Positions 24,628 to 57,887 of a DNA stretch of 64,000 bases are shown piece by piece; positions within the stretch are counted from its first letter, which is position 1, and each line of letters begins with the position of its first letter. Position numbers and translations under genes: made by a program. The stretch covers positions 160,358 to 224,357 of IMG/VR virus record IMGVR_UViG_3300036770_006893. One strand, 5' to 3'. The DNA comes from a virus. The notes under the pieces were generated by a model that was not told the DNA's origin, ran no database searches, and saw nothing but the letters and a program-made list of their open reading frames with translations.

Positions 24628-26274
24628 ATGAATACAAATATAACTCTGGTGACAGGAATATGGGACCTTGGTAGATCTAATCTATCAGATGGTTGGTCTA
24701 GGGCTTTTGAGCACTATATAAATAATTTCAGGCTACTGCTAAATAATACTAAAGATATAAATTTGGTAGTATTTATAGACAAGTCGTTGGAAGAATTAGT
24801 GTGGTCTATAAGAGAAAAGACTAATACCAGAGTATACCACCATTCAGTAGAAGAGTTTGATAGTAATTTTTTCCCATTTCGTGAAGAAGTAGAAAAAATA
24901 AGAAAAAACGAAGAATGGTTGAACCAAGCGGGTTGGCTTAGAGAAAGCACTCAAGCTAGGCTAGAAATGTACAATCCTTTAGTTATGAGCAAGATGTTCC
25001 TGCTGCATAATGCTAAAATATATAATGATTTTAATAGTGATTATCTTTTTTGGATAGATGGCGGGATAACAAATACTGTGCATCCAGGTTATTTTAGTAG
25101 CGATAAGGTTCTTCAGAAAATATCTGAAAAATTAGATAATTTTTTGTTTATATGCTTTCCATATAATACAGAATCCGAAATACATGGGTTCAAAATAGAA
25201 GGAATGAGAAAATTTAGTCAGTGTGATTCTGTTAAAAGAGTTGCTAGGGGAGGTTTTTTTGGTGGAAAATCTGAGCTTATATCACCAGCTAATGATATGT
25301 ATTATGCTTTGCTTAAGGATACTTTGTCTCAAGGATATATGGGAACCGAAGAAAGCATATTTACTATCATGTCTTATTTAGACAGCAAAAGTTTTAGAGT
25401 AGAGATGATAAATGAGGACGGCCTTATATCTACCTTCTTCGAAAATGTAAAAAACAATAAATTTATATCACTAAATAAATCACAAAAAATACACAAAAAC
25501 AAAAACATAGAGCTGTATATAAATACATTTAACTCTCCAAAACAACTTAAAATGGTGATAGAAAGCTTTGAACGGCACGATACAAATTTCCTAAATAAAA
25601 CAAAAAAGTTTCTAATTAATAATTCAACAAATGAAAAATTTGATACAGAATATGACGAGATATGTAATCAATATAACTTTAATCAAATCAAAAAAGGTAA
25701 TATAGGTATATGCGGTTCCAGACAATTGGCCGCAGAAATGTTCTATAAAAATAAAAGCCAGTATATGTTATTTTTTGAGGATGATATGTTAATAGATTTT
25801 TCTGGTGTTTGTAGATTCGGTTTTCCCAAAAAAACAAAAGATCTCTTTAATAATTTAGTTTCAATAATGGATCAAGAAAATTACGATTTTATTAAGCTCA
25901 GCTTTTCAGAATTCTACGGACATAATGGAATGCAATGGAGTTGGCATAATGTTCCACATAATAAAAAAATAGAATATTTTGGCGAAATCAAAAACAAACC
26001 ATTCACATTATTTAAAAACATAAAATCAAAGAATGGTGTTCCGTATGCCGACGGAGAGGTTTACTACTCCAACTGGCCACATATTATAAACCAAGAAGGC
26101 AATAAGAAAATGTTTATAGACACCAAATGGGCCAACCCTTTTGAACAAACTTGGATGAGCCATATTTACTCATTGACAAAAGAACAAAAAGTATTTCCAG
26201 CAATATTGCTATCTAGTCCAATAACACATAATAGGGTAGATTTTTATGAGTCTTCAGAAAGAAAAGAAAACTAA
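24628..26274 (+). CDS. Two-domain glycosyltransferase (HtrL/YibB-like plus GT-A)
   Basis: 548 residues. The N-half (about 1-285) resembles the HtrL/WlaTC glycosyltransferase family: TLVTGIWDLGR, EMYNPLVMSKMFLL, YLFWIDGGITNTVH, GGFFGGKSELI. The C-half (about 290-530) is a GT-A domain with IELYINTFNSPKQLKMV, GICGSRQLAAEMF and MLFFEDDMLIDF as metal-binding acidic motif. A fused enzyme could add two sugars. First of five plus-strand genes for glycan work. Possibly translated without a leader. Confidence 0.82.
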   Translation: MNTNITLVTGIWDLGRSNLSDGWSRAFEHYINNFRLLLNNTKDINLVVFIDKSLEELVWSIREKTNTRVYHHSVEEFDSNFFPFREEVEKIRKNEEWLNQAGWLRESTQARLEMYNPLVMSKMFLLHNAKIYNDFNSDYLFWIDGGITNTVHPGYFSSDKVLQKISEKLDNFLFICFPYNTESEIHGFKIEGMRKFSQCDSVKRVARGGFFGGKSELISPANDMYYALLKDTLSQGYMGTEESIFTIMSYLDSKSFRVEMINEDGLISTFFENVKNNKFISLNKSQKIHKNKNIELYINTFNSPKQLKMVIESFERHDTNFLNKTKKFLINNSTNEKFDTEYDEICNQYNFNQIKKGNIGICGSRQLAAEMFYKNKSQYMLFFEDDMLIDFSGVCRFGFPKKTKDLFNNLVSIMDQENYDFIKLSFSEFYGHNGMQWSWHNVPHNKKIEYFGEIKNKPFTLFKNIKSKNGVPYADGEVYYSNWPHIINQEGNKKMFIDTKWANPFEQTWMSHIYSLTKEQKVFPAILLSSPITHNRVDFYESSERKEN

Positions 26275-27532
26275 AAACCAAAACAGCATATTTGTGCAGA
26301 TAGCTGCTTATAGGGATCCACAATTGATGCCGACCCTAGACGATATGCTAGATAAGGCCATGAGACCTGATGATCTAAGCATAGGAATAGCTTGGCAACA
26401 CTGCGATAATGATAAATGGGACAATTTAGACAAATACATCAATGATAATAGATTCAAAATTATAGATATAAACTATAAGGAATCTAAAGGAGTTTGTTGG
26501 GCAAGAAACATGGTTCAGCAGTTATATAACAATGAAAAATATACTCTTCAATTAGATAGTCATCATAGATTTGAAAAAGATTGGGATAAAACTCTAATAG
26601 ATATGGTTAAAAATTTACAAAAAAAGGGATATAAAAAACCATTATTAACATCTTATATACCTAGTTTCGATCCGGATAATGATCCAGCAGCAAGAGTTTT
26701 GCAACCATGGAAAATGAATTTCGACAGATTCATACCTGAAGGCGCTGTATTTTTTATACCATCTAATTTTGATCCATGGGACAATGTTGATGAACCACTT
26801 CCGGCAAGATTTTATAGTGCTCACTTTGCTTTTACTGTCGGACAATTTTCTAAAGAAGTTCAGCATGATCCTGAGTATTATTTTCACGGAGAAGAAATCA
26901 GTATAGCAGCACGAGCTTATACGCATGGGTATGACTTATTTCATCCAAACAAGGTTGTTTGTTGGCATGAATACACAAGAAAAGGCAGAACAAAACAATG
27001 GGATGATGATCCGAAGTGGGTAGAGAAAAATAATTTGTGTCATCTAAAAAACAGAAAACTTTTTGGTATGGACGGCGAAAAACAAGATATTGATTTTGGC
27101 AAATATGGATTTGGTAGCCGTAGGACTCTTAGAGAGTACGAAAAATATTCAGGTTTGAGCTTCAAGGACAGATCCATCCACAAGTCTGTACAACAAAAAA
27201 TAGACCCAATATCTGCAAATACCTTGTCCTTAACCGACGAAGAATTTGATGCTAGTCTCATGAGTATTTTCAGACACTGTATAGATATTTCTTATGATCA
27301 GGTTCCAGAAAGCGATTATGATTTTTGGGCAGTTGCATTTAAAAATGCTAAAGGCGAAGATATGTATAGGCAGGATGCTGATAGAAATGAAATTATTTCT
27401 ATGAAAGCAGACCCAGATGGATATTGCAAAGTTTGGCGAGAGTTTCAAACAAAACAAAAACCCTATAGTTGGATTGTTTGGCCCCATAGCGAAAGTAAGG
27501 GATGGGCCAGTCCAATAACAGGAGTACTATAA
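26246..27532 (+). CDS. GlcNAc-transferase-like glycosyltransferase (PF11397 type)
   Basis: 428 residues. The first 270 carry the GlcNAc-transferase pattern of the Skp1 hydroxyproline GlcNAc-transferase family: FVQIAAYRDPQLMPTLDDML, GVCWARNMVQQLY, TLQLDSHHRFEKDWD (metal site), EISIAARAYTHGYDLFHP and VCWHEY. The C-terminal 150 residues form a separate domain with VPESDYDFWAVAFKN. Because the fibres are Pro/Thr-rich, glycosylation of Thr or hydroxyproline in the stalks is a possible role (inference). It overlaps the previous gene by 29 nt. Confidence 0.85.
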   Translation: MSLQKEKKTKNQNSIFVQIAAYRDPQLMPTLDDMLDKAMRPDDLSIGIAWQHCDNDKWDNLDKYINDNRFKIIDINYKESKGVCWARNMVQQLYNNEKYTLQLDSHHRFEKDWDKTLIDMVKNLQKKGYKKPLLTSYIPSFDPDNDPAARVLQPWKMNFDRFIPEGAVFFIPSNFDPWDNVDEPLPARFYSAHFAFTVGQFSKEVQHDPEYYFHGEEISIAARAYTHGYDLFHPNKVVCWHEYTRKGRTKQWDDDPKWVEKNNLCHLKNRKLFGMDGEKQDIDFGKYGFGSRRTLREYEKYSGLSFKDRSIHKSVQQKIDPISANTLSLTDEEFDASLMSIFRHCIDISYDQVPESDYDFWAVAFKNAKGEDMYRQDADRNEIISMKADPDGYCKVWREFQTKQKPYSWIVWPHSESKGWASPITGVL

Positions 27533-32896: not shown

Positions 32897-33220
32897 TTAT
32901 TGAATTATATTCTTATATGGTCTGTTTTGGTATTTATGTAAAAATTTTTGGCAGTCATCTGCGACTGATGGATTCCAGCTCTTATAATCCATAAGATGAC
33001 CGAATACTAAATGACACGGACTATCGCATAGAGTTATAAGATTAGTCATATCTAACTCTCTATCTGGATTCACATGCACTGGCTCTATATGATGAACTTC
33101 AAGTTTTTTATTTCTGCCACACGCCGCACATGTACCATTATTATTAAGATGCTCTTTTCTGATCGTAGACCATTTTGGAGACCTATATGCAAACCTAGTA
33201 TATTTTTTAATACCAAACAT
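32897..33220 (-). CDS. HNH endonuclease
   Basis: 107 residues. The HNH core is CAACGRNKKLEVHHIEPV, then LITLCDSPCHLVFGH, with paired Cys as zinc ligands. N-terminal YRSPKWSTIRKEHL is typical of small phage HNH proteins related to terminase-linked or homing nucleases. Its ATG overlaps the stop of the actin-like gene (TAATG). Confidence 0.88.
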   Translation of the reverse strand: MFGIKKYTRFAYRSPKWSTIRKEHLNNNGTCAACGRNKKLEVHHIEPVHVNPDRELDMTNLITLCDSPCHLVFGHLMDYKSWNPSVADDCQKFLHKYQNRPYKNIIQ

Positions 33221-34221
33221 TACAGTACCTTAGACGCTATTAAACATCCTTTCGATACTGAGTGCAGAGGATCCTGTGCGTGTACCACCTCTTTAATAGG
33301 TAGCGGAAAATTATTATCTTTTATTTTTTGGGCAAATAATTCAATATATCCCTTTGCTTGTGATGTTCCACCGGCGATAACAATTTTAAGAGGGTTCTTG
33401 AACTTTGGTAAAGACTTATGGCCAGATAATGCATTTGATAACTGTTTTGTTGTATAATCTATCAACCTCTCATAATAGGCGCACACTGCTGCTAAAACAG
33501 GATTTTCGTTGTGTTCGCCTATTTTAAACTGCCCGCCCTCTTTCTCTGCCTGAACAACACTATCGCTTTCTCCGGTGGCTACAGCACTCATACGATCAAT
33601 CCAGTCGCCTGACTTTGTGGTACTAAAGACTACAGTTGGTTCTCCATTCAACATAACGCAAACATTCGTCATACCAGCACCACAACTGATTGCTATGCCG
33701 GTATAATCATCATCCTCTAGTTCTGCATAACAAAGAGCCTCTGCTTCGTTTATGGCTCTAGCGTCATATCCACATTCTGCTAAAACGCTCTTTACAACAT
33801 CTTCGTGGTATCCAACATCAAAATCTTCATCTTCTTGATCAACTGGTTGTGCCGGCACACAAAAAACCAGCTTTTCATTTGGTTCCGAAGCTTTACCTAC
33901 GACTTCTTTAAGAATAAATGCTAGTACTCTTTTTGCGTCTTTTTCTTTAGCAGATACTACTCCTCTATACATTGGACGTTTAGCAATATCGTTTCTTTCT
34001 ACAGCTTTTTCTATAGCATCTTTACCCAATATAATGAATGAGCCATCATTGTCTTTGATAAATGTTTTTCCAGCCAGTCCTTTTTCTATCATTTTTGTGG
34101 CGACTGGAGTTGTTGGTCTTATTATGTAAAAAGCATCTCGAAAATCTTTGTATTCAATATTGCCTTCTTTTTCTGATGACAAAACTATGAAGCTTGTACC
34201 TACATCTAAACCTTTTGACAT
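33220..34221 (-). CDS. Actin/ParM-like ATPase
   Basis: 333 residues with the actin-fold order: phosphate-1 GLDVGTSFIVLSSEK, connect-1 INEAEALCYAEL, phosphate-2 GIAISCGAGMTNVCVML and adenosine motif IVIAGGTSQAKGYIE. No substrate-binding chaperone domain, so it is not a full Hsp70. Actin-like phage proteins can form filaments for DNA segregation or positioning; chaperone-like or MreB-like roles are alternatives. The protein is acidic. It is next to a small membrane protein gene which could be a partner. Confidence 0.82.
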   Translation of the reverse strand: MSKGLDVGTSFIVLSSEKEGNIEYKDFRDAFYIIRPTTPVATKMIEKGLAGKTFIKDNDGSFIILGKDAIEKAVERNDIAKRPMYRGVVSAKEKDAKRVLAFILKEVVGKASEPNEKLVFCVPAQPVDQEDEDFDVGYHEDVVKSVLAECGYDARAINEAEALCYAELEDDDYTGIAISCGAGMTNVCVMLNGEPTVVFSTTKSGDWIDRMSAVATGESDSVVQAEKEGGQFKIGEHNENPVLAAVCAYYERLIDYTTKQLSNALSGHKSLPKFKNPLKIVIAGGTSQAKGYIELFAQKIKDNNFPLPIKEVVHAQDPLHSVSKGCLIASKVL

Positions 34222-46549: not shown

Positions 46550-46577
46550 ATTATATCCTATGTATCGGCGTTGTCAA
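46550..46577 (-). promoter_or_regulatory. Sigma-70-like promoter
   Basis: TTGACA at 46572-46577, 16-nt spacer starting ACGCCGATA, perfect TATAAT at 46550-46555. Drives the HTH-like gene. Confidence 0.88.
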
Positions 46578-48922: not shown

Positions 48923-50236
48923 TTAGACGGTTCTCGCAGACCCATGTAGAATTTTAAACGTAGGAAATCGCAAACTGATACCACCATCTTGGTTTTTAGT
49001 TTCCTCAAAATACTGCACAGTTATAATCTGTCCAAGAATCTTATTAGGGTTCCGATAAAATTCCTGACGTTGTTCTATAGTGAAACCGCTACCAACTCTC
49101 ACAAGATGATCCTTATGCTTAATAGTAACGCAACTCAACATAGTTTCTTCACACTCAGCACCATTCTTTACATAACGAAATGGCCCCATTTCTGTGTCGA
49201 TTACTTCATACTCGTCATCAAAAAACTTCTTAACTTTCAACAGGTCTTTGCTACGCTTGCCTTTATATGGCTCGTCTGCTCGTAGCATTACTCCTTCCCA
49301 ACCATAATCAGCCGCTTCTTTGACCCATTCTTGAAAATGCTCGTCATTATGAATCAATTCTTGTTCAAGCAGAGTAAGGCACGGACATTCATTTTTGGTC
49401 ATAATCTCTGTAAGATTTGCTAACCGAATAGAATATGGACGATTCTTTTCACCCTTCTTGCTATAAAACTCGTCGTGAGAGATCATATCAAAAATTTTGA
49501 ATGACGGATTAGGAATAGTATGATCCTTCTTTTTAAGTTGTTTCATAATCCCTTGGAAATCCTCATTACCATCATCATCTACAAGACACAGTTCACCATC
49601 AAATATTACATCAGTAACCCCCAAAGCCTTAATCCCACGGCTAACAACACCAAGAGTTTCAAAACTCTTTCCTGTGCGGGAATAAAAAGTAGAGTCCCCA
49701 TTACCATCAACAATACAAATACATCTAGCACCATCAATTTTTCTGCTAACATACCAATTATCCTTCCATTCTACAAGTTTAGGCTCATACTTATCTGCCA
49801 GAGCAACACTAAACTCTGGAATATGGTCAGGAATAGCCTTGTTGATAATCTTGTCACCAGCACGGGTTTTCAAGTCCTTATCAATAATGCAATAAATAAG
49901 TTCCTCAATATTGTCTTTATTTGACTGACTATCAATAAAAGTATGGACTGCTCCAATAGCATCGTGACCAGTAATCTTTCGACTCTTTAGGGCATCAAGT
50001 AGATCGAAGAAATTCTTATAGGATTTTCCTCTCAAAGAATTCTTCTTTTTCAGATTGTCGCTAGTAACATTATACTGCCACAAAGGGTGATAGGTGTAAA
50101 GAAGAATTTTTTTAGCAAAATTTGCAGCCTCAGAATTATGATTACAATAATCTTCAATAATACCTTGCTTATCAATAGTGCTGCTAGTAGCCCTAAGATC
50201 ACGAACCATACCCCAAACATAATTAAAATCGTGAAT
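48923..50236 (-). CDS. ATP-dependent DNA ligase
   Basis: 437 residues from MIHDFNYVWGMV. The longer frame would start upstream of the promoter -10, and CGGAGAAAC lies 9 nt before this ATG. Motif I is WYVSRKIDGARC (adenylated Lys), motif III FDGELCLV, motif IV YGWEGVMLR, motif V LLKVKKF; an OB domain follows (GSGFTIEQRQEF, FPTFKILHG). The N-terminal 170 residues are a helical DNA-binding-type domain. It seals nicks in phage replication or repair. Confidence 0.94.
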   Translation of the reverse strand: MHDFNYVWGMVRDLRATSSTIDKQGIIEDYCNHNSEAANFAKKILLYTYHPLWQYNVTSDNLKKKNSLRGKSYKNFFDLLDALKSRKITGHDAIGAVHTFIDSQSNKDNIEELIYCIIDKDLKTRAGDKIINKAIPDHIPEFSVALADKYEPKLVEWKDNWYVSRKIDGARCICIVDGNGDSTFYSRTGKSFETLGVVSRGIKALGVTDVIFDGELCLVDDDGNEDFQGIMKQLKKKDHTIPNPSFKIFDMISHDEFYSKKGEKNRPYSIRLANLTEIMTKNECPCLTLLEQELIHNDEHFQEWVKEAADYGWEGVMLRADEPYKGKRSKDLLKVKKFFDDEYEVIDTEMGPFRYVKNGAECEETMLSCVTIKHKDHLVRVGSGFTIEQRQEFYRNPNKILGQIITVQYFEETKNQDGGISLRFPTFKILHGSARTV

Positions 50237-50271
50237 CATCCAAAGTTTCTCCGGTTTCCTGTGTTCAAGCC

Positions 50272-50300
50272 AGTATATCATATACTATCGGCGTTGTCAA
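50272..50300 (-). promoter_or_regulatory. Sigma-70-like promoter for ligase
   Basis: TTGACA at 50295-50300, 17-nt spacer starting ACGCCGATA, TATACT at 50272-50277. It places the true ligase start at 50236. Confidence 0.9.
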
Positions 50301-51096: not shown

Positions 51097-51855
51097 CTAC
51101 TTTTTAAGTTCGGTTTTGGATTCTTTTATCCATTCTAAAAATTTAGAAACTCTGGTATGCCCAGATTCTTCTCCATACTTTGACATTGGAGATTTACCAA
51201 TAGTCATTACACACGAATTTATTCCTGCTAGTTTACCTTCTATAAAAAGACCCCCACCACTATCTCCACTTCCTATCATATACTCTAATATTGTATGATC
51301 TTTTGCTCCATATCGCGATGGAGAACATAGCAGCATATCTTTTTCTATTCCATCGATCACATTGGATCCTGCTCTTAATTTATTATCTGATTTATATATA
51401 CCGGTATTGAAATTACCAGTTAGTCCCCAGCCAGCAATTGAGGCTACTTTACCAACTTCGTTTTCATCTTCATATAATGGAGGAAAATGCTCTTGATCAA
51501 AACCGCTTTCAGAATATCCTAATGCTATATCAGCCACTCCAAATCGGCCATCAAAATCTTTGTGTACAATTATATTGTCTACAATAAACTGTTTGTCTCC
51601 TATTTTTACATAACAAGTTTTGTATCCTTTAACAACGTGACCGGCAGTTAGTACAAAATGTTTTTCAATAATAACTCCAGAAGCACAAAATTTTGTATCA
51701 TCTTGGTATGTGCCACAAAGCCTAACAACACAATAAAATTTGCTACCAAAATCTAAATATTTTTGATCTGGTATATTTGGATCTATAGTTCCGCTATAAG
51801 ATAGAGAGCATAGTCCTAAAAGAGAAAACAAAAAAAGCTTTTTAAGTATAAACAT
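51097..51855 (-). CDS. Secreted trypsin-like serine protease (S1)
   Basis: 252 residues with a signal peptide (FLFSLLGLCSLSYSG). S1 triad: His in VLTAGHVVKG, Asp in VADIALGYS, Ser in GSGDSGGGLFIEGK. Four or more cysteines probably form disulfides in the periplasm, fitting the secreted thioredoxin-like protein under a similar promoter. AAAGGAGGG is a strong ribosome site. Role: perhaps envelope remodelling or inactivation of periplasmic defence proteins. Confidence 0.9.
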   Translation of the reverse strand: MFILKKLFLFSLLGLCSLSYSGTIDPNIPDQKYLDFGSKFYCVVRLCGTYQDDTKFCASGVIIEKHFVLTAGHVVKGYKTCYVKIGDKQFIVDNIIVHKDFDGRFGVADIALGYSESGFDQEHFPPLYEDENEVGKVASIAGWGLTGNFNTGIYKSDNKLRAGSNVIDGIEKDMLLCSPSRYGAKDHTILEYMIGSGDSGGGLFIEGKLAGINSCVMTIGKSPMSKYGEESGHTRVSKFLEWIKESKTELKK

Positions 51856-51881: not shown

Positions 51882-51915
51882 AGTATAATACACTATTTTT
51901 GTCTATTTTTAGACA
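51882..51915 (-). promoter_or_regulatory. Promoter with operator-like palindrome
   Basis: The -10 region is TATTAT/TATACT at 51882-51890. The perfect palindrome TGTCTA-n4-TAGACA lies at 51900-51915. The layout (palindrome, A run, GTGTAT, TATACT, GCC) parallels that at 34971-35001. It overlaps the end of the endonuclease VII-like gene. Confidence 0.55.
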
Positions 51916-52240
51916 TAATTAAATAGTTAGCAGCTTTAATTATGCCGTCTAGATTATCTCCCAACTTTCCCAATCCCGTATTACAAGGCTCACAGAGCCA
52001 ACCCCTAAAACTATCGTCACTATGATCGTGATCTAAACACCATTTAAGAGGAATTTTTCCACAACATTCACAAACTTCTGGTTTTGGCGGAGCTTCTTTA
52101 TGTAGCTGATTTCTTACTTTGCTGTGTTTTTTAACGCAACTTCTACATCTGCTATCCAAATTATCTTTGTACATACTGTGCTTGGGAAAACTTTTATGGT
52201 TTTTTCGTTTGCCGCAGTAAGTACAAATTTTTCTAGGCAT
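51893..52240 (-). CDS. Endonuclease VII-like (HNH/His-Me) nuclease
   Basis: 115 residues. N-terminal zinc pair (CTYCGKRK, CRSCVKKH), then CECCGKIPLKWCLDHDHSDD, FRGWLCEPCNTGLGKLGDN, and a helical end. This is the recombination-endonuclease VII pattern (T4 gp49 family), but small free-standing forms often act as homing nucleases. The ATG is only 2 nt from the 3' end of the tmRNA gene on the same strand. Confidence 0.9.
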   Translation of the reverse strand: MPRKICTYCGKRKNHKSFPKHSMYKDNLDSRCRSCVKKHSKVRNQLHKEAPPKPEVCECCGKIPLKWCLDHDHSDDSFRGWLCEPCNTGLGKLGDNLDGIIKAANYLIMSKNRQK

Positions 52241-52242
52241 AC

Positions 52243-52595
52243 TGGACGAGAGGGGAGTCGAACCCCTGTCCTATCATATTTCTAATTACATCTTCTACAA
52301 GTTTATTCTGTTCATAAGTTTTGAGAAAGATTAAAGAACAAACAACATTCATCTTTCCGTACCAACTAGTCTCAGGCTAGAACCCGTTGGCTATTCTAGC
52401 AGCCGAAGGATTTTACGACAATCTTTTGAACGCTACCTTCATCGCTTTCTAAGATTGTTGCTACCTTTTATTAAGCAGCAAGGGCTAACTGAGTATTGCC
52501 AGTTACAGCATTTGGTAGATTTTTAAAGTGGCCTTTCCACCAACCACTACTTGCCAATATAATCTTCTTTATGTAGTCGAAACCTTTACTCGCCC
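52243..52595 (-). ncRNA. ssrA: Phage-encoded tmRNA
   Basis: 353 nt. 5' GGGCGAG pairs with 3' CTCGTCC (one G-T), discriminator A, CCA not encoded. The 5' part GTAAAGGTTTCGACTACATA matches the tmRNA D-arm-like region (TTCGAC). T arm AGGGG-TTCGACT-CCCCT. The tag frame at 52471-52509 ends LALAA. Regions between can form pseudoknots, not resolved by eye. It would rescue stalled ribosomes and tag products for proteolysis in the infected cell. Confidence 0.93.
52471..52509 (-). other. tmRNA proteolysis tag reading frame
   Basis: Codons from the likely resume codon GCT give AVTGNTQLALAA then TAA. The ALAA end is the usual ClpXP/ClpAP recognition end. Confidence 0.88.
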
Positions 52596-52801
52596 TAATT
52601 ATTATACACAAAATCTTTGTTTTTCAAATGTTCCAAAGCCTCTAACTTCAGATACAAATATTCAAAAAATACTTTGTACGTTGCTTTTTCTTGTCTCAAT
52701 AATTTTATCTCTTCGTATTGAATAAGATTAAAACCTAAAGACATAGATAGAATACCAATTATTATTACATAATATGGCATATGTTTTGAACGATTTGTCA
52801 T
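52595..52801 (-). CDS. Small membrane protein before tmRNA
   Basis: 68 residues with one membrane helix (YYVIIIGILSMSLGFNLIQY) and a helical tail. Its TAG stop ends exactly at the tmRNA 5' base, and the tmRNA promoter lies within its coding end. Unknown function. Confidence 0.6.
   Translation of the reverse strand: MTNRSKHMPYYVIIIGILSMSLGFNLIQYEEIKLLRQEKATYKVFFEYLYLKLEALEHLKNKDFVYNN
52601..52627 (-). promoter_or_regulatory. tmRNA promoter
   Basis: TATAAT at 52601-52606, 5 nt before the tmRNA 5' end. TTGAAA at 52622-52627 gives a 15-nt spacer (TTTGAA gives 16). The -10 is preceded by GTG, as at the tRNA-Ile promoter. Confidence 0.7.
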
Positions 52802-52868: not shown

Positions 52869-53360
52869 ATGAATCAATGCGTCAACTGTTCCAAAGAAAC
52901 AAGTAATCCAAGGTTTTGTTCAAGATCATGTGGTGTGTCATACAATAATCGAATAAAACCTAAAAGAATTAAAAGGATGAGAACTTGTAAATTTTGTAAA
53001 AATCAATTTCATTCTCTTCATAGTTATAATCAAAAATATTGTAATAAACAATGCTTACAAAATCATAGAGAATACAATATTCAAACTAATGGTTTTGGTG
53101 AAGGTCATTACCACAATAATTCTATAAGAAAATATCTAGTTAAAAAGCATGGTAATAATTGTATGATTTGCGGACAGTCAGGAAATGATTGGAATGGTAA
53201 ACCTATAACTCTTATTGTGGATCATATTGATGGAAAATCTAATAATAATAAACTAGATAATCTTCGTATTGTTTGTCCTAATTGCGACTGTCAATTACCA
53301 ACCTATAAAGCAAAAAATAAAGGAAATAGTTCTCGTAAATATTACATAGTCCAAAAATAA
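52869..53360 (+). CDS. Free-standing HNH homing-type endonuclease
   Basis: 163 residues. N-terminal zinc fingers (CVNCSKETSNPRFCSRSC, CKFCKNQFHS, YCNKQC), a basic middle, and the HNH core CMICGQSGNDWNGKPI, LIVDHIDGKSNNNKLDNLRI, VCPNCDCQ. Plus strand, with its own promoter and AAAGGAG site. Its stop codon ends at 53360; the opposite-strand tRNA begins at 53361. Probably mobile. Confidence 0.9.
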   Translation: MNQCVNCSKETSNPRFCSRSCGVSYNNRIKPKRIKRMRTCKFCKNQFHSLHSYNQKYCNKQCLQNHREYNIQTNGFGEGHYHNNSIRKYLVKKHGNNCMICGQSGNDWNGKPITLIVDHIDGKSNNNKLDNLRIVCPNCDCQLPTYKAKNKGNSSRKYYIVQK

Positions 53361-53440
53361 TACTCCTGCTTGGAATCGAACCAAGTCCCCTTTCGGATTA
53401 CCTTATAAGAGTAATTGCCGGGAACCACCGGCACAGGAGC
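53361..53440 (-). tRNA. tRNA, probable Ile (UAU), with extended variable loop
   Basis: 80 nt. Acceptor GCTCCTG/CAGGAGT (one G-T), discriminator A; D arm CCGG-TGGTTC-CCGG (short loop); anticodon stem TTACT/GGTAA (one T-G) with loop CTTATAA, giving TAT; variable region of about 12 nt (can pair CC/GG); T arm CTTGG-TTCGATT-CCAAG. TAT would read ATA, a very common Ile codon here. The long variable region is odd for Ile, so identity is tentative. Confidence 0.72.
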
Positions 53441-53449
53441 GTATGTTGT

Positions 53450-53478
53450 ATTATACACTATCGACCGATCTCTGTCAA
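53450..53478 (-). promoter_or_regulatory. Sigma-70-like promoter for tRNA
   Basis: TTGACA at 53473-53478, 17-nt spacer, TATAAT at 53450-53455, about 10 nt before the tRNA. It lies inside the end of the SpoU-type methyltransferase gene. Confidence 0.88.
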
Positions 53479-54024
53479 CTCTCCAGTTTCGTTTTTCAAT
53501 TTTTCCACAAAGTTTCTATAAATTCCCATAACAATACCACTAGTTGTTCCCACGTTGAGAGAACGAACGCTACCATAATTAGGAATAGTAAGGATAATAT
53601 CACACTTATCCAAAATGAAATCTGATAGTCCTTTATTTTCTTCTCCAAATAAAAATATAGGTTGAGTAGTATTGTAGTATTGATAATCAAAGAGATTAAC
53701 GGTTTTGTGACTATATTCGGGAACGTTATTTTCAATAGCAATAACAGTCCTACCAGGGCATTGTGAAATAAAAGACTGTTCATCTTTATGGTGATACATT
53801 GGTGTGTAGTGATGGGTTCCTACGCTGCCTCTTTTATCCCATTTCTTTTTACCGATATAATGGACACTACTAAACCCAAAAAAGTTTGCGTTACGAACCA
53901 GTGTACTAAGATTAAAATCTCCGCTAATATTAATCATGGCAACACTCGCTGGTATGCTGTTACTAATACAGTATTCAGCAATATCAGGAATAGCATATTC
54001 TTTTAGGCTATCAATCACGTTCAT
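53458..54024 (-). CDS. SpoU/TrmH-family RNA methyltransferase
   Basis: 188 residues with the SPOUT motifs: motif 1 NLSTLVRNANFFGFSSVHYI (Arg for catalysis), motif 2 PIFLFGEENKGLSDFIL, motif 3 LTIPNYGSVRSLNVGTTSGI (SAM knot). The family adds 2'-O-methyl groups to tRNA or rRNA. Its position directly upstream of a tRNA suggests phage or host tRNA as substrate, perhaps in defence against anticodon nucleases (inference). Confidence 0.92.
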   Translation of the reverse strand: MNVIDSLKEYAIPDIAEYCISNSIPASVAMINISGDFNLSTLVRNANFFGFSSVHYIGKKKWDKRGSVGTHHYTPMYHHKDEQSFISQCPGRTVIAIENNVPEYSHKTVNLFDYQYYNTTQPIFLFGEENKGLSDFILDKCDIILTIPNYGSVRSLNVGTTSGIVMGIYRNFVEKLKNETGELTEIGR

Positions 54025-54212
54025 TTTTCAATTTTTCTTTGTAAGCTTTCCAATTTTTTTTCCAACCTAAATATTAGAGAATATGTGTCTGAGCATTTTT
54101 TACAATAATCAGAAACTATATATTCTCTAGCCTCCCATATATCTTCTTTGATCTTTGATATGCGTTCAAGAATTTTTTCTTTTTCGTTTTCGCTTAGGTT
54201 TTGGTTGGTCAT
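54021..54212 (-). CDS. Small coiled-coil protein
   Basis: 63 residues. Heptads at both ends (ENEKEKILERISKIKEDIWE, LIFRLEKKLESLQRKIEK) with two Cys between (CKKC), perhaps a dimer or metal site. It overlaps both neighbours. Confidence 0.58.
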   Translation of the reverse strand: MTNQNLSENEKEKILERISKIKEDIWEAREYIVSDYCKKCSDTYSLIFRLEKKLESLQRKIEK

Positions 54213-54555
54213 TTTGAATAGTCTCCTTATGCCAAAATACCATTTCGTTTAACTCATCGTCCCAAGCACATTCTACAATGTCTCTTGCTGCTAGTTTAGC
54301 AAGCCCGGTGTTGTGGATCATTGTCGCTGTTTCATGAAAAATAATTTCGTTTTGTTTTTCGTTCAAAAGAGGTCTATTATTAGCGTCAAAGCCCAAACAA
54401 TAAGACTCAACTAAACCAATCATTTGGCCAATGCTAATATAGTCATCCAAATTGTCTTGGTGGCTATGTTCACTAATGCTTTTTGCTGCTGCTTCTCTCA
54501 TTTGAGAAACATAACCATTAATGTCAGTAATAGCATAAACAGTATCGTCCTGCAT
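54166..54555 (-). CDS. Hypothetical phage protein
   Basis: 129 residues. The helical body has KLAARDIVECAWDDELNEMV then FWHKE, resembling the C-terminal block of the protein at 37728. A very basic tail (KPKRKRKRKNS) suggests nucleic-acid contact. Confidence 0.6.
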   Translation of the reverse strand: MQDDTVYAITDINGYVSQMREAAAKSISEHSHQDNLDDYISIGQMIGLVESYCLGFDANNRPLLNEKQNEIIFHETATMIHNTGLAKLAARDIVECAWDDELNEMVFWHKETIQNDQPKPKRKRKRKNS

Positions 54556-54572
54556 TATTAATCTCCAATAAG

Positions 54573-54851
54573 TTATTTAATAAACTTAGATACACCCTGA
54601 CCGGAATCTTCTGATATTTTATCAAGAATTCGGCTAATTGTATATTGCATATTTACTTCTCCTCTATTTAACCATCGGCTATTACTATCTAGTGCCGTTA
54701 TAATTTGAGGAATCCAGTGCTGATACGCTACATCAAATTCTTCTGGAAAATAAGTCTTCAATATTCTCTGTATATGAAATATAGAACTGTCTATTTGGTC
54801 TCTATAATCCATAAGTAGGTTCAATTGATCTTTTTGATCCTGGCTTAACAT
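54573..54851 (-). CDS. Small helical protein
   Basis: 92 residues, all helical, with aromatic HWIPQIITALDSNSRWLNRG. No family recognised. Its ATG shares one base with the upstream stop. Confidence 0.58.
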   Translation of the reverse strand: MLSQDQKDQLNLLMDYRDQIDSSIFHIQRILKTYFPEEFDVAYQHWIPQIITALDSNSRWLNRGEVNMQYTISRILDKISEDSGQGVSKFIK

Positions 54852-55285
54852 TAAACTAATGCCTTATCGTATTTAGGATTATATGCAGAATCTTTCTTTT
54901 TCATTTTGAGAATTTTATGTTTAACTTTCCAAACTCCAGTTTCAGGATTTTGACAATCTGGCCCCATATAAATATGAGCAAATCCAGCGTTCTTATCAAT
55001 ACCCCAAGCGCAGATGCCTTTATCATCAATCTTTTCTACAACAAATCTTCCTCTATATCCCATAGGGACAAGTTCTCCATTGTGTAGAAAATATGGGCCG
55101 CCACCTACCTTGATCTTATCGCCCGGCTCAAGATCCTTCCAGTTAAAGTCTCTAATAATTTTATGTGTTCGCTTTTCTTTGTTGTTGATTTTAAAAGAAA
55201 AAACATGATTGCAATTCTTACAAACATAGGCTCGCGGCCCAACCATGTTAGAACAATTCGGACAAGTCTTTTTGCCTTTGGGCAT
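54851..55285 (-). CDS. Zinc-ribbon protein with beta-rich domain
   Basis: 144 residues. N-terminal zinc ribbon (KTCPNCSNMVGPRAYVCKNC). The rest is a strand-rich domain (DLEPGDKIKVGGGPYFL, GYRGRFVVEKIDDKGI). Strong leader (CACAGGAG) and its own promoter. Perhaps a nucleic-acid binding regulator. Confidence 0.65.
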   Translation of the reverse strand: MPKGKKTCPNCSNMVGPRAYVCKNCNHVFSFKINNKEKRTHKIIRDFNWKDLEPGDKIKVGGGPYFLHNGELVPMGYRGRFVVEKIDDKGICAWGIDKNAGFAHIYMGPDCQNPETGVWKVKHKILKMKKKDSAYNPKYDKALV

Positions 55286-55315
55286 TTCTAATCTCCTGTG
55301 TCAGTGAATATGCTA

Positions 55316-55343
55316 AGTATACTACCGTTATCGGCGTTGTCAA
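55316..55343 (-). promoter_or_regulatory. Sigma-70-like promoter
   Basis: TTGACA at 55338-55343, 16-nt spacer starting ACGCCGATA, TATACT at 55316-55321. Drives the zinc-ribbon gene. Confidence 0.88.
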
Positions 55344-55561
55344 GCGGTTTTCTTTAGACCGTCCACAATTGTGAGTTTTCCAGGCTCATAATGACAAAAA
55401 TAACTAGAATGAATTCTTCTCTTAATTAGGTTATTTTCTTCTATTTCGATATATACATTAATTCTGTATCTATTTTCCCAAACATTTATAATTTTGGTCA
55501 TTAGATGACGTTTAGGTTTCTCTACTTGCTTAAACAGAAGGTTTTCAATTTCAAGATCCAT
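55340..55561 (-). CDS. Small hypothetical protein
   Basis: 73 residues from MDLEIENLLFKQV, with TGGAGAAAATA before the ATG. Beta-rich (RINVYIEIEENNLIKRRIH). Its last codons overlap the downstream promoter -35. Confidence 0.58.
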   Translation of the reverse strand: MDLEIENLLFKQVEKPKRHLMTKIINVWENRYRINVYIEIEENNLIKRRIHSSYFCHYEPGKLTIVDGLKKTA

Positions 55562-55754
55562 TATTTTCTCCAGAATCAAATTTTATGTAAATTCCCTTTT
55601 CCTCTGTGTCATTAAACTCTATTAGATCACCATTAAATAATCCACCATAAGCATTGTCGTAAACCTTAACATCTTGTTGCCAATCAAATTTACCAAATGC
55701 TTTCATATCATTTGCTTTTTGATGAAGAAAATTATATAGATCAAGCCAGTTCAT
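55551..55754 (-). CDS. Small hypothetical protein
   Basis: 67 residues: DLYNFLHQKANDMKAF helix, then strands (GDLIEFNDTEEKGIYIKF). Overlaps the next gene by 11 nt. Unknown. Confidence 0.58.
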   Translation of the reverse strand: MNWLDLYNFLHQKANDMKAFGKFDWQQDVKVYDNAYGGLFNGDLIEFNDTEEKGIYIKFDSGENNGS

Positions 55755-55756
55755 TA

Positions 55757-55975
55757 TTATCTAGCCCTCCGGTTTGCTCTATCTAATTTGCGAATAGTTT
55801 CTCTAGCATTAGCAGGAACCATAACCAAACTGGGTGCTGTTTTGTGTCCCCAATCCATAAATCCAACAGCACGATTCTCTACACTACAATCTTTACAGAT
55901 AATCTTACGGCCAGTTTCAACAAGAAATTCATAACGATCAAAATCAATATCGTTTTGACAATAAATACAATTCAT
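55757..55975 (-). CDS. DksA/TraR-like zinc-finger protein
   Basis: 72 residues. CIYCQNDIDFDRYEFLVETG then ICKDCSVENR gives a four-Cys zinc site as in DksA/TraR-type fingers, followed by a basic helix (TIRKLDRANRRAR). Could modulate host RNA polymerase, but it lacks the DksA coiled coil. Own promoter upstream. Confidence 0.62.
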   Translation of the reverse strand: MNCIYCQNDIDFDRYEFLVETGRKIICKDCSVENRAVGFMDWGHKTAPSLVMVPANARETIRKLDRANRRAR

Positions 55976-55995
55976 TGGTATCCTCCGTTGATTGG

Positions 55996-56023
55996 ATTAT
56001 ACCATACTCATCGGCACTGTCAA
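55996..56023 (-). promoter_or_regulatory. Sigma-70-like promoter
   Basis: TTGACA at 56018-56023, 16-nt spacer (GTGCCGATG...), TATAAT at 55996-56001. It lies in the end of the deaminase-like gene and drives the zinc-finger gene. Confidence 0.86.
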
Positions 56024-56455
56024 CCGGGTTGCTTGAATCGGATTTCCTATACTATCAACAAAGTCTCCGTTGTCAGTACTATAATAAACATCATTCAAGC
56101 CAACGCTGCTTAATAACTTGCTGCAATTTTCACAAGGTTTACTACCCAGAATTAATCCTTTTCTATTAATTCGCATAACAACAATACTCCAGTTAGGATC
56201 AATAGTATTATAACGACCCAGCAATTCAGAAATAAGCCTAGACTCACTATGATAGTAGGGAAACTCTTTATATTTAGGAAGATTAAAGTCTTCGCCTATT
56301 CTGTAGGCTCCAGCATGGGTTTTGATAGGATTGTTTTGGGTGAAACAAATTAGTTTTGTTCCATCATAACAACCAGCATAATGGTAACATCGAATACTTT
56401 TAGTCGGATTCCAATTCTTGTATGCTCGTCTGATCGTTTTGTTTATTATTTTCAT
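55997..56455 (-). CDS. Cytidine-deaminase-superfamily protein
   Basis: 152 residues. The zinc-site signature is split as in the CDA fold: YYHSESRLISELLG (HxE) and GSKPCENCSKLLSSVG (PCxxC). ThyX and nucleotide genes nearby suggest a dCMP-deaminase-like role, yet the long, Asn-rich insertion before HSE differs from classic dCMP deaminases. RNA or free-base deamination remain possible. Confidence 0.72.
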   Translation of the reverse strand: MKIINKTIRRAYKNWNPTKSIRCYHYAGCYDGTKLICFTQNNPIKTHAGAYRIGEDFNLPKYKEFPYYHSESRLISELLGRYNTIDPNWSIVVMRINRKGLILGSKPCENCSKLLSSVGLNDVYYSTDNGDFVDSIGNPIQATRLTVPMSMV

Positions 56456-56576
56456 TTTTTATCCAAAGATCATCAGCCATTTCGATATCATAGTAAGTAG
56501 GTGTAGTTAGTGGAATTTTTTCTGGTTCTTTATTTCTTGGATTGTCTGTTAGTGGTATTTTTTTTGGTTCTTTCAT
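56400..56576 (-). CDS. Small protein with KEPxKIPLT repeats
   Basis: 58 residues with two repeats (KEPKKIPLT, KEPEKIPLT), then an acidic region. AAGGAAAT lies before the ATG. It overlaps the deaminase-like gene start by 56 nt. Unknown; possibly a short peptide motif for binding a partner. Confidence 0.55.
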   Translation of the reverse strand: MKEPKKIPLTDNPRNKEPEKIPLTTPTYYDIEMADDLWIKNENNKQNDQTSIQELESD

Positions 56577-56587
56577 AGCGTATTTCC

Positions 56588-56734
56588 TTATTTATTTGCT
56601 AGTATATATAGTCCAACATTAGCAAAAGCATATCCGATATATGTTATTAGCATACCAGTATTGCCTTTGTATCCTTGCTCGCAAGCAACGTACAAATAGC
56701 AGCAACCAGTAAAAGCAATTAACCAAGCACTCAT
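56588..56734 (-). CDS. Small two-helix membrane protein
   Basis: 48 residues (MSAWLIAFTGCCYLYVACEQ, then LITYIGYAFANVGLYILANK). Its start overlaps the UV endonuclease stop (ATGA). Known only as a type of small phage membrane protein. Confidence 0.62.
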   Translation of the reverse strand: MSAWLIAFTGCCYLYVACEQGYKGNTGMLITYIGYAFANVGLYILANK

Positions 56735-57648
56735 GCGATTACCCCTTTACAGATTTCTTCATGATGTTCTATAGCATAGTCTTTCATTTTGAGTTCCATA
56801 TCAACATCAAATTCTAATCCATAGTTATTAAACATATTTTCAGCATAATCAGCATGAGCACGGGGATTATTTCCCGGCCTACTTTCGCTGTAGTGAAAAA
56901 GCGGTCGATATCCTTGCCATGTCAAATAGCAAGACTCAAGTGCTTCTTGTTCATTTAAATCATTAGGATTGCACTTGTGATGAAGATAATCAAATGTAAT
57001 AGGTATATTTGTGGCAGGGTGAAAATGTTCGATAAGTTCTTTCACACTCCAGCAGTTAACTTTGTCATCATTTTCAATAACAAGTCTGCTCCTGCAATTA
57101 GGATCAAGACGATTAAAATTTTGAATAAAACGATCAATGATTTCAGAGTGTGTTCCATTTTTATTATGAACGTGCAGGTTCATCGGGTTGTTATAATTTG
57201 CTTCAAGGCCGATTCTGTCGAAGAAATTGCTGTAGAAGTTAAGTTCTTTGATTGTTTTTTCGACTGCTTTGGGATTGAGAGATGCCAATACATTAAATTC
57301 GCTAGGATGACAAGAAACACGAACCCCAGTATCGGAAATAGTTTGTGAAATATTCTTAAACTCGTTTTGTATGTCATCATAATTAGGCAACTCTTCTAAT
57401 GATACATTTGCCTCATCATATGTTATCAGTGGAAAGATATCACTACTAACACGATATGTATAATTATTTTTGGAGCAATATTTGATAGTTTCATTAGTTG
57501 TTTTGAGGTTGTTTAGAATTCTATCTCCAAGAGTTTGGACCGCCTCTTCTCTGCGTAGGCAATTAAATCTTTTAAAGGTCATGGTTTGATGACCAATACC
57601 CTGTTCTTTAAGTTTAAGGGAAATACAACACAGTCCGTAGCGATTCAT
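56731..57648 (-). CDS. uvsE: UV-damage endonuclease UvdE/UvsE
   Basis: 305 residues. YGLCCISLKLKEQG start, VRVSCHPSEFNVLAS, MNLHVHNKNG, LVIENDDKVNCW, ITFDYLHHKCNP and FHYSESRP give the TIM-barrel metal ligands of the UVDE family. It nicks DNA 5' of UV photoproducts. With ligase and a possible glycosylase this forms a phage repair set. Own promoter upstream. Confidence 0.95.
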   Translation of the reverse strand: MNRYGLCCISLKLKEQGIGHQTMTFKRFNCLRREEAVQTLGDRILNNLKTTNETIKYCSKNNYTYRVSSDIFPLITYDEANVSLEELPNYDDIQNEFKNISQTISDTGVRVSCHPSEFNVLASLNPKAVEKTIKELNFYSNFFDRIGLEANYNNPMNLHVHNKNGTHSEIIDRFIQNFNRLDPNCRSRLVIENDDKVNCWSVKELIEHFHPATNIPITFDYLHHKCNPNDLNEQEALESCYLTWQGYRPLFHYSESRPGNNPRAHADYAENMFNNYGLEFDVDMELKMKDYAIEHHEEICKGVIA

Positions 57649-57665
57649 AGTAAAGCCTCAAGCGT

Positions 57666-57693
57666 AGTATACCTCATCATCGACAAAAGTCAA
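57666..57693 (-). promoter_or_regulatory. Sigma-70-like promoter for UV endonuclease
   Basis: TTGACT at 57688-57693, 16-nt spacer (TTTGTCGATG...), TATACT at 57666-57671. Confidence 0.8.
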
Positions 57694-57887
57694 CCGTTCG
57701 CTTGAGGGATTTCTTCTACTGATAAAATTTTTTGAACGATGATATCATCAATTAAAAGATTAAAAGTAAATTGTTTTTCTGCCTTATCTTTATCTGATGA
57801 ATGCACTATTTCATTGTATAATAGGCTTTGCCCAGGATTATCTCCACACATATCACAAACCTGTGCCGTAACATTAAATGTTCTCAT
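57690..57887 (-). CDS. Small CxxC protein
   Basis: 65 residues from MRTFNVTAQVCDMCGDN. One CxxC, then a strand-rich body. It overlaps the ThyX stop by 4 nt. Unknown. Confidence 0.55.
   Translation of the reverse strand: MRTFNVTAQVCDMCGDNPGQSLLYNEIVHSSDKDKAEKQFTFNLLIDDIIVQKILSVEEIPQANG

Follow-up and report, generated by a model that had tools for sequence, protein, structure and literature searches.

A complete tmRNA gene conserved in a lineage of large uncultured phages

Genes for tmRNA are known from phages: a 2021 survey counted them in 402 of 18,146 phage genomes (PMC9004378), they are present in mycobacteriophages such as Bxz1 and Wildcat and in Bacillus phage G (PMC4131195), and huge phages have been described that carry tmRNA together with SmpB (PMC7162821). 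Plating of lambda-immP22 requires trans-translation (an effect of about 10,000-fold), chiefly for ribosome rescue and recycling (PMC2862035). Phage tmRNAs have until now mostly been listed singly, with little evidence of their upkeep by selection. To these known cases, the locus described here adds a core, strongly selected tmRNA family of an uncultured lineage, set in a tight operon.

The window analyzed covers the final 64 kb of an IMG/VR virus record of 224,357 bases, which represents a large uncultured phage. An earlier note on this DNA had proposed a complete tmRNA gene at 52243-52595 and had called for a covariance-model search; ARAGORN and RF00023 both bear the proposal out, on the minus strand, and the search was strongly positive, the RF00023 model being matched end to end (positions 1-374) at 120.5 bits (E = 1.5e-46), compared to a gathering score of 47. 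ARAGORN calls the gene unpermuted, i.e. no circularly permuted or two-piece layout was found. The gene and its structural elements are as follows.

52243-52595, minus strand: one-piece tmRNA (ssrA) gene, 353 nt, CCA not encoded (ARAGORN; RF00023; covariation in 40 relatives)
52589-52595, minus strand: 5′ half of the acceptor stem, GGGCGAG, the third base being G3 of G3.U70 (sequence; 101 distinct relatives)
52243-52250, minus strand: 3′ half of the acceptor stem, CTCGTCC, with discriminator A73 (sequence)
52514-52547, minus strand: pseudoknot PK1 (P3/P4; covariation helices 5 and 6)
52405-52457, minus strand: pseudoknot PK2 (P6/P7; covariation helices 8, 9 and 10)
52362-52400, minus strand: pseudoknot PK3 (P8/P9; covariation helices 11 and 12)
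52309-52358, minus strand: pseudoknot PK4 (P10/P11; covariation helices 13 and 14)

As the earlier note had described, the acceptor halves pair (GGGCGAG/CTCGTCC, all 7 base pairs) and the T arm is intact, in its stem as well as its loop; the third acceptor pair is G3.U70. A G.U at the third acceptor pair is the main alanine identity element. The phage tmRNA therefore has the complete set of features that defines the tRNA-like domain (TLD), namely the 7-bp acceptor, G3.U70, the T arm and A73. Single-sequence folding gave weak evidence of structure (z = −1.74), and covariation was used instead.

Relatives were gathered by two DNA-pattern scans of viral contigs, a ligase scan and an HMM, yielding 101 distinct full-length family members from uncultured phage contigs, with pairwise identity down to 59%. 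The acceptor stem occurs in eight different sequences among these members, all fully paired and with G3.U70 invariant; the lone apparent exception (L108) was read as a one-base register error. Across 40 diverse relatives, a 93-pair structure that includes the four pseudoknots is paired in 95.9% of cells, compared to 82.9% when shuffled and 38-46% when slid. Double-sided changes were found in 471 cells vs. 138 expected from shuffles, a level reached by 0 of 500 shuffles, and 58 of the 93 pairs show changes on both sides. Compensatory changes are present in every helix and pseudoknot, and the pseudoknot helices (5-6, 8-10, 11-12 and 13-14) are paired in 88-100% of cells. Given these shuffled and slid controls, chance is excluded as the source of the structure. 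The covariation is strong evidence for selection on the tmRNA, in sequences that are related by a tree and hence not independent. Decay or an assembly artefact is very unlikely, given that the relatives conserve the gene. The sequence evidence thus gives good support to a tmRNA that is complete and probably functional. The TLD is unusually variable in some relatives, T-loop variants being found in L116, L122 and L127. In these three and in L149, the T-loop is swapped for sequences such as GGGCAGAA (alignment A3), and the D-arm region changes in step, from TTCGACTAC to ATCGATTGG-like forms.

The tag reading frame and the determinant of its resume codon lie within the gene.

52504-52505, minus strand: resume-codon determinant, U(−5) A(−4) (columns T91 A92 of alignment A3, invariant)
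52474-52500, minus strand: tag frame GGC AAT ACT CAG TTA GCC CTT GCT GCT, i.e. GNTQLALAA, followed by TAA TAA at 52468-52473 (ARAGORN; CM alignment; frame kept in relatives)

U(−5) and A(−4) ahead of GGC are invariant across the 40 diverse relatives, and their positions agree with the ruler rule for resumption at GGC, according to which the resume point lies 4 bases past a conserved A (A86 in E. coli) (PMC2481249). The earlier note had read a 12-residue tag, AVTGNTQLALAA, ending in ALAA; the ending stands, but the proposed start is three codons early. In relatives including L115, L139, L158 and L196, a one-base deletion turns the homologous GCT into GCT-TAA, an immediate stop, whereas the Gxx-QLALAA frame stays open. 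Because of these deletions and the invariant U(−5)A(−4), the tag is the nine residues GNTQLALAA, starting at GGC. The gene thus has an internal tag frame with a conserved A(−4) and a C-terminal LAA. The pattern G-x-x-QLALAA was found in 99 of the 101 distinct members, the other two having GTTPFALAA and GETHLALAA; positions 2-3 vary among ET, TN, VN, NN, NT, TT, KT, AN, VT and SH.

Most relatives were found via the tmRNA itself, and a collection based on the DNA ligase was used to avoid this bias.

48923-50281, minus strand: ATP-dependent DNA ligase, the syntenic marker for the prevalence test (phrog_114)

Of 35 ligase-selected loci in which the contig extends 3 kb or more upstream of the ligase, 34 carry the tmRNA; it is a near-universal core gene of one uncultured phage lineage. 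The order rIIA, ligase, endonuclease VII, tmRNA and then the genes of 53458-57884 is kept in 10 of 11 compared contigs, in which the proteins are mostly 40-87% identical (protein comparison); the T4-type genes flanking the tmRNA are those for rIIA, rIIB, ATP-dependent DNA ligase, endonuclease VII, ThyX and UvdE. No blastn relative of the tmRNA was detected in 50,697 deposited phage records, no meaningful blastn match to bacterial tmRNAs in five genomes, and no exact copy of its 5′ motif in 84,980 bacterial and archaeal species genomes. For terminase, portal, ligase and ThyX, the closest isolate phages gave distant or mixed matches only. Elsewhere in the record, an actin-like protein (33220-34221) matches Pfam Volactin (E = 2.9e-63) and is 84% identical in relative L293; for a GlcNAc-type glycosyltransferase (26246-27532; PF11397, E = 2.6e-75), the phage relatives are limited to three, from jumbo phages of Xanthomonas and Stenotrophomonas; and a single 5267-aa open reading frame (L011:1162-16965; record 79162-94965) lies outside the window.

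The immediate surroundings of the tmRNA gene comprise the following features.

53450-53478, minus strand: perfect sigma-70 promoter TTGACA-N17-TATAAT (12/12 match), the probable early promoter of tRNA-Ile, ORF, tmRNA and EndoVII
53361-53440, minus strand: tRNA-Ile (anticodon TAT), the usual upstream neighbour of the lineage's tmRNA (ARAGORN; relatives)
52869-53360, plus strand: HNH endonuclease gene, an antisense insert between tRNA-Ile and the small ORF (phrog_1271)
52595-52801, minus strand: 68-aa ORF, MTNRSKHMPYYVIIIGIL...FVYNN*, a probable small membrane protein (hydrophobic N-terminal segment)
52601-52606, minus strand: TATAAT 5 nt upstream of the tmRNA, doubling as Tyr-Asn codons of the 68-aa ORF (sequence)
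51893-52240, minus strand: endonuclease VII-like HNH gene (EndoVII), 115 aa, with its ATG 2 nt past A73 (PF02945, E = 5e-11; phrog_2633)

The promoter lies 9 nt ahead of tRNA-Ile(TAT). Perfect sigma-70 sites number 11 in the record, vs. about 0.6 expected after scaling, and sigma-70 promoters with at most one mismatch are found upstream in 47 of 78 relatives. Many of the eleven (e.g. 46550-46577, 53450-53478 and 55996-56023) contain a CGAT spacer motif, e.g. TTGACAACGCCGATACATAGGATATAAT; perfect promoters with this spacer are probably the early-promoter consensus of the phage. Of 76 relatives, 38 have tRNA-Ile as the nearest upstream tRNA; where there is no insertion, it is often separated from the tmRNA by 210-270 nt. 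The antisense HNH gene is optional: a homolog is present in 10 of 76 relatives, in most of which it stretches the gap between tRNA-Ile and tmRNA to about 765-815 nt. Its stop codon is flush with the 3′ end of tRNA-Ile, and relative L165 has an HNH remnant between tRNA-Ile and tmRNA.

The earlier note had also placed a −10 element five nt upstream of the tmRNA. TATAAT is indeed there, but the hexamer overlaps codons of the upstream 68-aa ORF. Of 88 distinct loci, 11 have an exact TATAAT placed 3-12 nt before the tmRNA, in some cases together with a good −35. The close relatives L310 and L202 retain the hexamer and pair it with TTTACA at 16 nt; at the same spacing, L042 has TTGACA. A second promoter directly upstream of the tmRNA is therefore possible, and appears credible in some relatives.

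On the downstream side, the EndoVII-like gene adjoins the tmRNA in 44 of 63 relatives. Its ATG lies 2-13 nt after A73 (within 15 nt) in 34 of 52 relatives, none with a Shine-Dalgarno 4-mer, so that, once the tmRNA is excised, translation of EndoVII may start on an mRNA with hardly any leader. Further downstream is a gene for a trypsin-like protease with an apparent signal peptide (51097-51855); this signal peptide and inconsistent linkage led us to reject the protease as a partner of the tag.

The G of the TAG stop codon of the 68-aa ORF is G1 of the tmRNA (52595). The same one-base overlap with TAG was found in 22 of 84 distinct loci, this one included, and in 11 more the stop codon abuts G1; among the 63 loci with an ORF close upstream, the 22 overlaps are always by TAG. 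By comparison, tRNA genes of the same phages overlap an upstream stop codon in 2 of 35 cases and abut it in 0 of 35 (Fisher p = 1.8e-6, uncorrected for kinship). Three unrelated upstream gene families show the overlap. The 5′ end of tmRNA is made by RNase P (PMC3985003); a cut at G1 would strip the upstream stop codon of its final base and so yield a nonstop mRNA. Conceivably, tmRNA excision acts as a switch on the neighbours, whereby the released tmRNA would tag the product of the upstream gene (a small membrane or thioredoxin-like protein) and the EndoVII mRNA would become almost leaderless, in a self-referential circuit similar to that of E. coli arfA, the mRNA of which lacks a stop codon and is repressed by trans-translation (PMC10107115). 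We consider such a circuit decidedly unlikely, and genome compaction is a simpler explanation of the overlap than regulation. If functional, the overlap would be a new way to couple tmRNA production to nonstop mRNA.

The earlier note had spoken of the phage's own trans-translation and had suggested a check for an smpB gene elsewhere in the genome. The RNA is phage-encoded; the SmpB search gave 0 matches in the 224,357-base record and in the contigs of 28 tmRNA-bearing relatives, and the system is thus half phage-encoded. Three records longer than 220 kb, counting this one, were covered, with relatives up to 233 kb; the search detects SmpB in 10 of 14 control genomes, and the negative is weakened by fragments and by phage records that may be incomplete. 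With no phage SmpB found, the phage would depend on that of its host.

With respect to the host, a related tag pattern has bacterial matches of which 51 of 53 are Bacteroidota or members listed with them, and GETNYALAA is the tag that predominates in those Bacteroidota tmRNAs whose resume region is similar. A Bacteroidota host, favoured at first from the Gly-start tag, was later lowered. TTGACA/TATAAT promoters and Shine-Dalgarno motifs are not the usual Bacteroidota pattern; such motifs precede 36% of phage ORFs vs. 10% in the background, and the QLALAA tag was found in none of 396 Bacteroidota or 399 Bacillota genomes. Because of these promoters, these motifs and the lack of a QLALAA tag in these genomes, a Bacteroidota host is less favoured. 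No photosystem reaction-centre gene was found in 12 records, leaving a cyanobacterial host without support.

The explanation that we consider probable is that a working phage tmRNA, made early, rescues ribosomes via host SmpB, mainly to free them. The analysis shows the gene, its structure, G3.U70, the tag frame, the conservation and the layout of the operon; the transcription, processing, charging, use of SmpB and benefit of the tmRNA are what we infer. Host RNA polymerase would start at the strong sigma-70 promoter early in infection and produce a single transcript comprising tRNA-Ile, the small membrane-protein ORF, the tmRNA and the endonuclease VII gene. The tmRNA would be released by RNase P and 3′ nucleases, receive its CCA end and be charged by host alanyl-tRNA synthetase via G3.U70. 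It would then be delivered by host SmpB and EF-Tu to ribosomes stuck on mRNAs that are broken or lack a stop codon; mRNA decay should make such templates numerous in a lytic infection. Translation would resume at GGC and add GNTQLALAA, and through its −LAA end the tagged fragment would be passed to host proteases. Most likely, the phage benefits mainly from ribosomes that stay free for its own translation, with degradation and amino-acid recycling secondary. It counts against this explanation that the host already carries a tmRNA, which raises the question of why a second one would be needed; the absence of SmpB from the phage record and the more variable TLD of some relatives also speak against it.

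Alternatively, the tag itself could be the point, the phage tmRNA substituting its own tag for that of the host and thereby rerouting tagged proteins (e.g. past a host adaptor), or tagging host proteins for recycling, as has been proposed for phage Melnitz (PMC9004378). The invariant Gly and QLALAA, with positions 2-3 alone free, and the absence of this pattern from the 396 Bacteroidota and 399 Bacillota genomes are compatible with such a role. However, −LAA is an ordinary ClpXP-type end, and tagging is at most secondary in the lambda-immP22 case (PMC2862035); we regard a tag-led function as unlikely.

It is highly improbable that the tmRNA is a mobile passenger that benefits the phage little and is spread by the adjoining HNH and endonuclease VII genes. 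The HNH gene does adjoin tRNA-Ile and the small ORF, 44 of 63 loci have the EndoVII-like gene behind the tmRNA, and in relative L287 the tmRNA is at another place. Nevertheless, the conserved gene order of 10 of 11 contigs and the finding of the tmRNA at 34 of 35 ligase-selected loci fit vertical inheritance, the HNH gene occurs in only 10 of 76 relatives, EndoVII is single-copy with phage-wide relatives, and both the structure and the tag of the tmRNA are clearly under selection.

Still further down the scale of probability is a decoy role, in which the RNA would titrate SmpB or the tmRNA pathway of the host instead of rescuing ribosomes: the TLD-only RNA of mycobacteriophage DS6A resembles an inhibitor and may titrate SmpB (PMC4131195), but the open tag, A(−4) and conserved pseudoknots, which a decoy does not need, are all kept here. 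Although the record is metagenomic and may be incomplete, an assembly chimera or bacterial contamination has a negligible probability, being refuted by conserved synteny (rIIA, rIIB, ligase and EndoVII flank the tmRNA in many independent contigs) and by the absence of the 5′ motif from the 84,980 species genomes.

The near-universal presence of the family, covariation in every helix and the almost invariant tag argue that trans-translation matters to these phages. The sequence set and the defined tag allow testing of why a phage brings a tmRNA without SmpB.

Compared with bacterial one-piece tmRNA (RF00023), the phage RNA is alike in its TLD with G3.U70, its four pseudoknots, its ALAA-ending frame and U(−5)A(−4); it differs in being phage-borne with no SmpB of its own found, in its Gly resume codon, its GxxQLALAA tag and CCA that is not encoded, and in its packing into an operon, where the 5′ end of the gene shares a base with a stop codon. 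As in E. coli arfA (PMC10107115), a nonstop mRNA under trans-translation is envisaged, analogous to the proposed effect of excision at TA|G; in arfA, however, an RNase III site is associated with the nonstop end, whereas the end proposed here would result from cleavage of the tmRNA itself by RNase P. The huge phages (PMC7162821) likewise have tmRNA in genomes larger than 200 kb, but SmpB, which they carry, was not found here. Similarly to the two-piece tmRNA of OM43 phage Melnitz and pelagiphages (PMC9004378), this tmRNA comes from an aquatic phage and lies behind a probable early promoter; in contrast, it is one-piece and not permuted, belongs to a different lineage and is accompanied by no riboswitch at the Rfam gathering score. 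Finally, like those of Bxz1, Wildcat and phage G, it is a complete tmRNA in a large phage genome; unlike them, it has no blastn relative among the 50,697 phage records, is near-universal in an uncultured lineage and has a tag pattern of its own.
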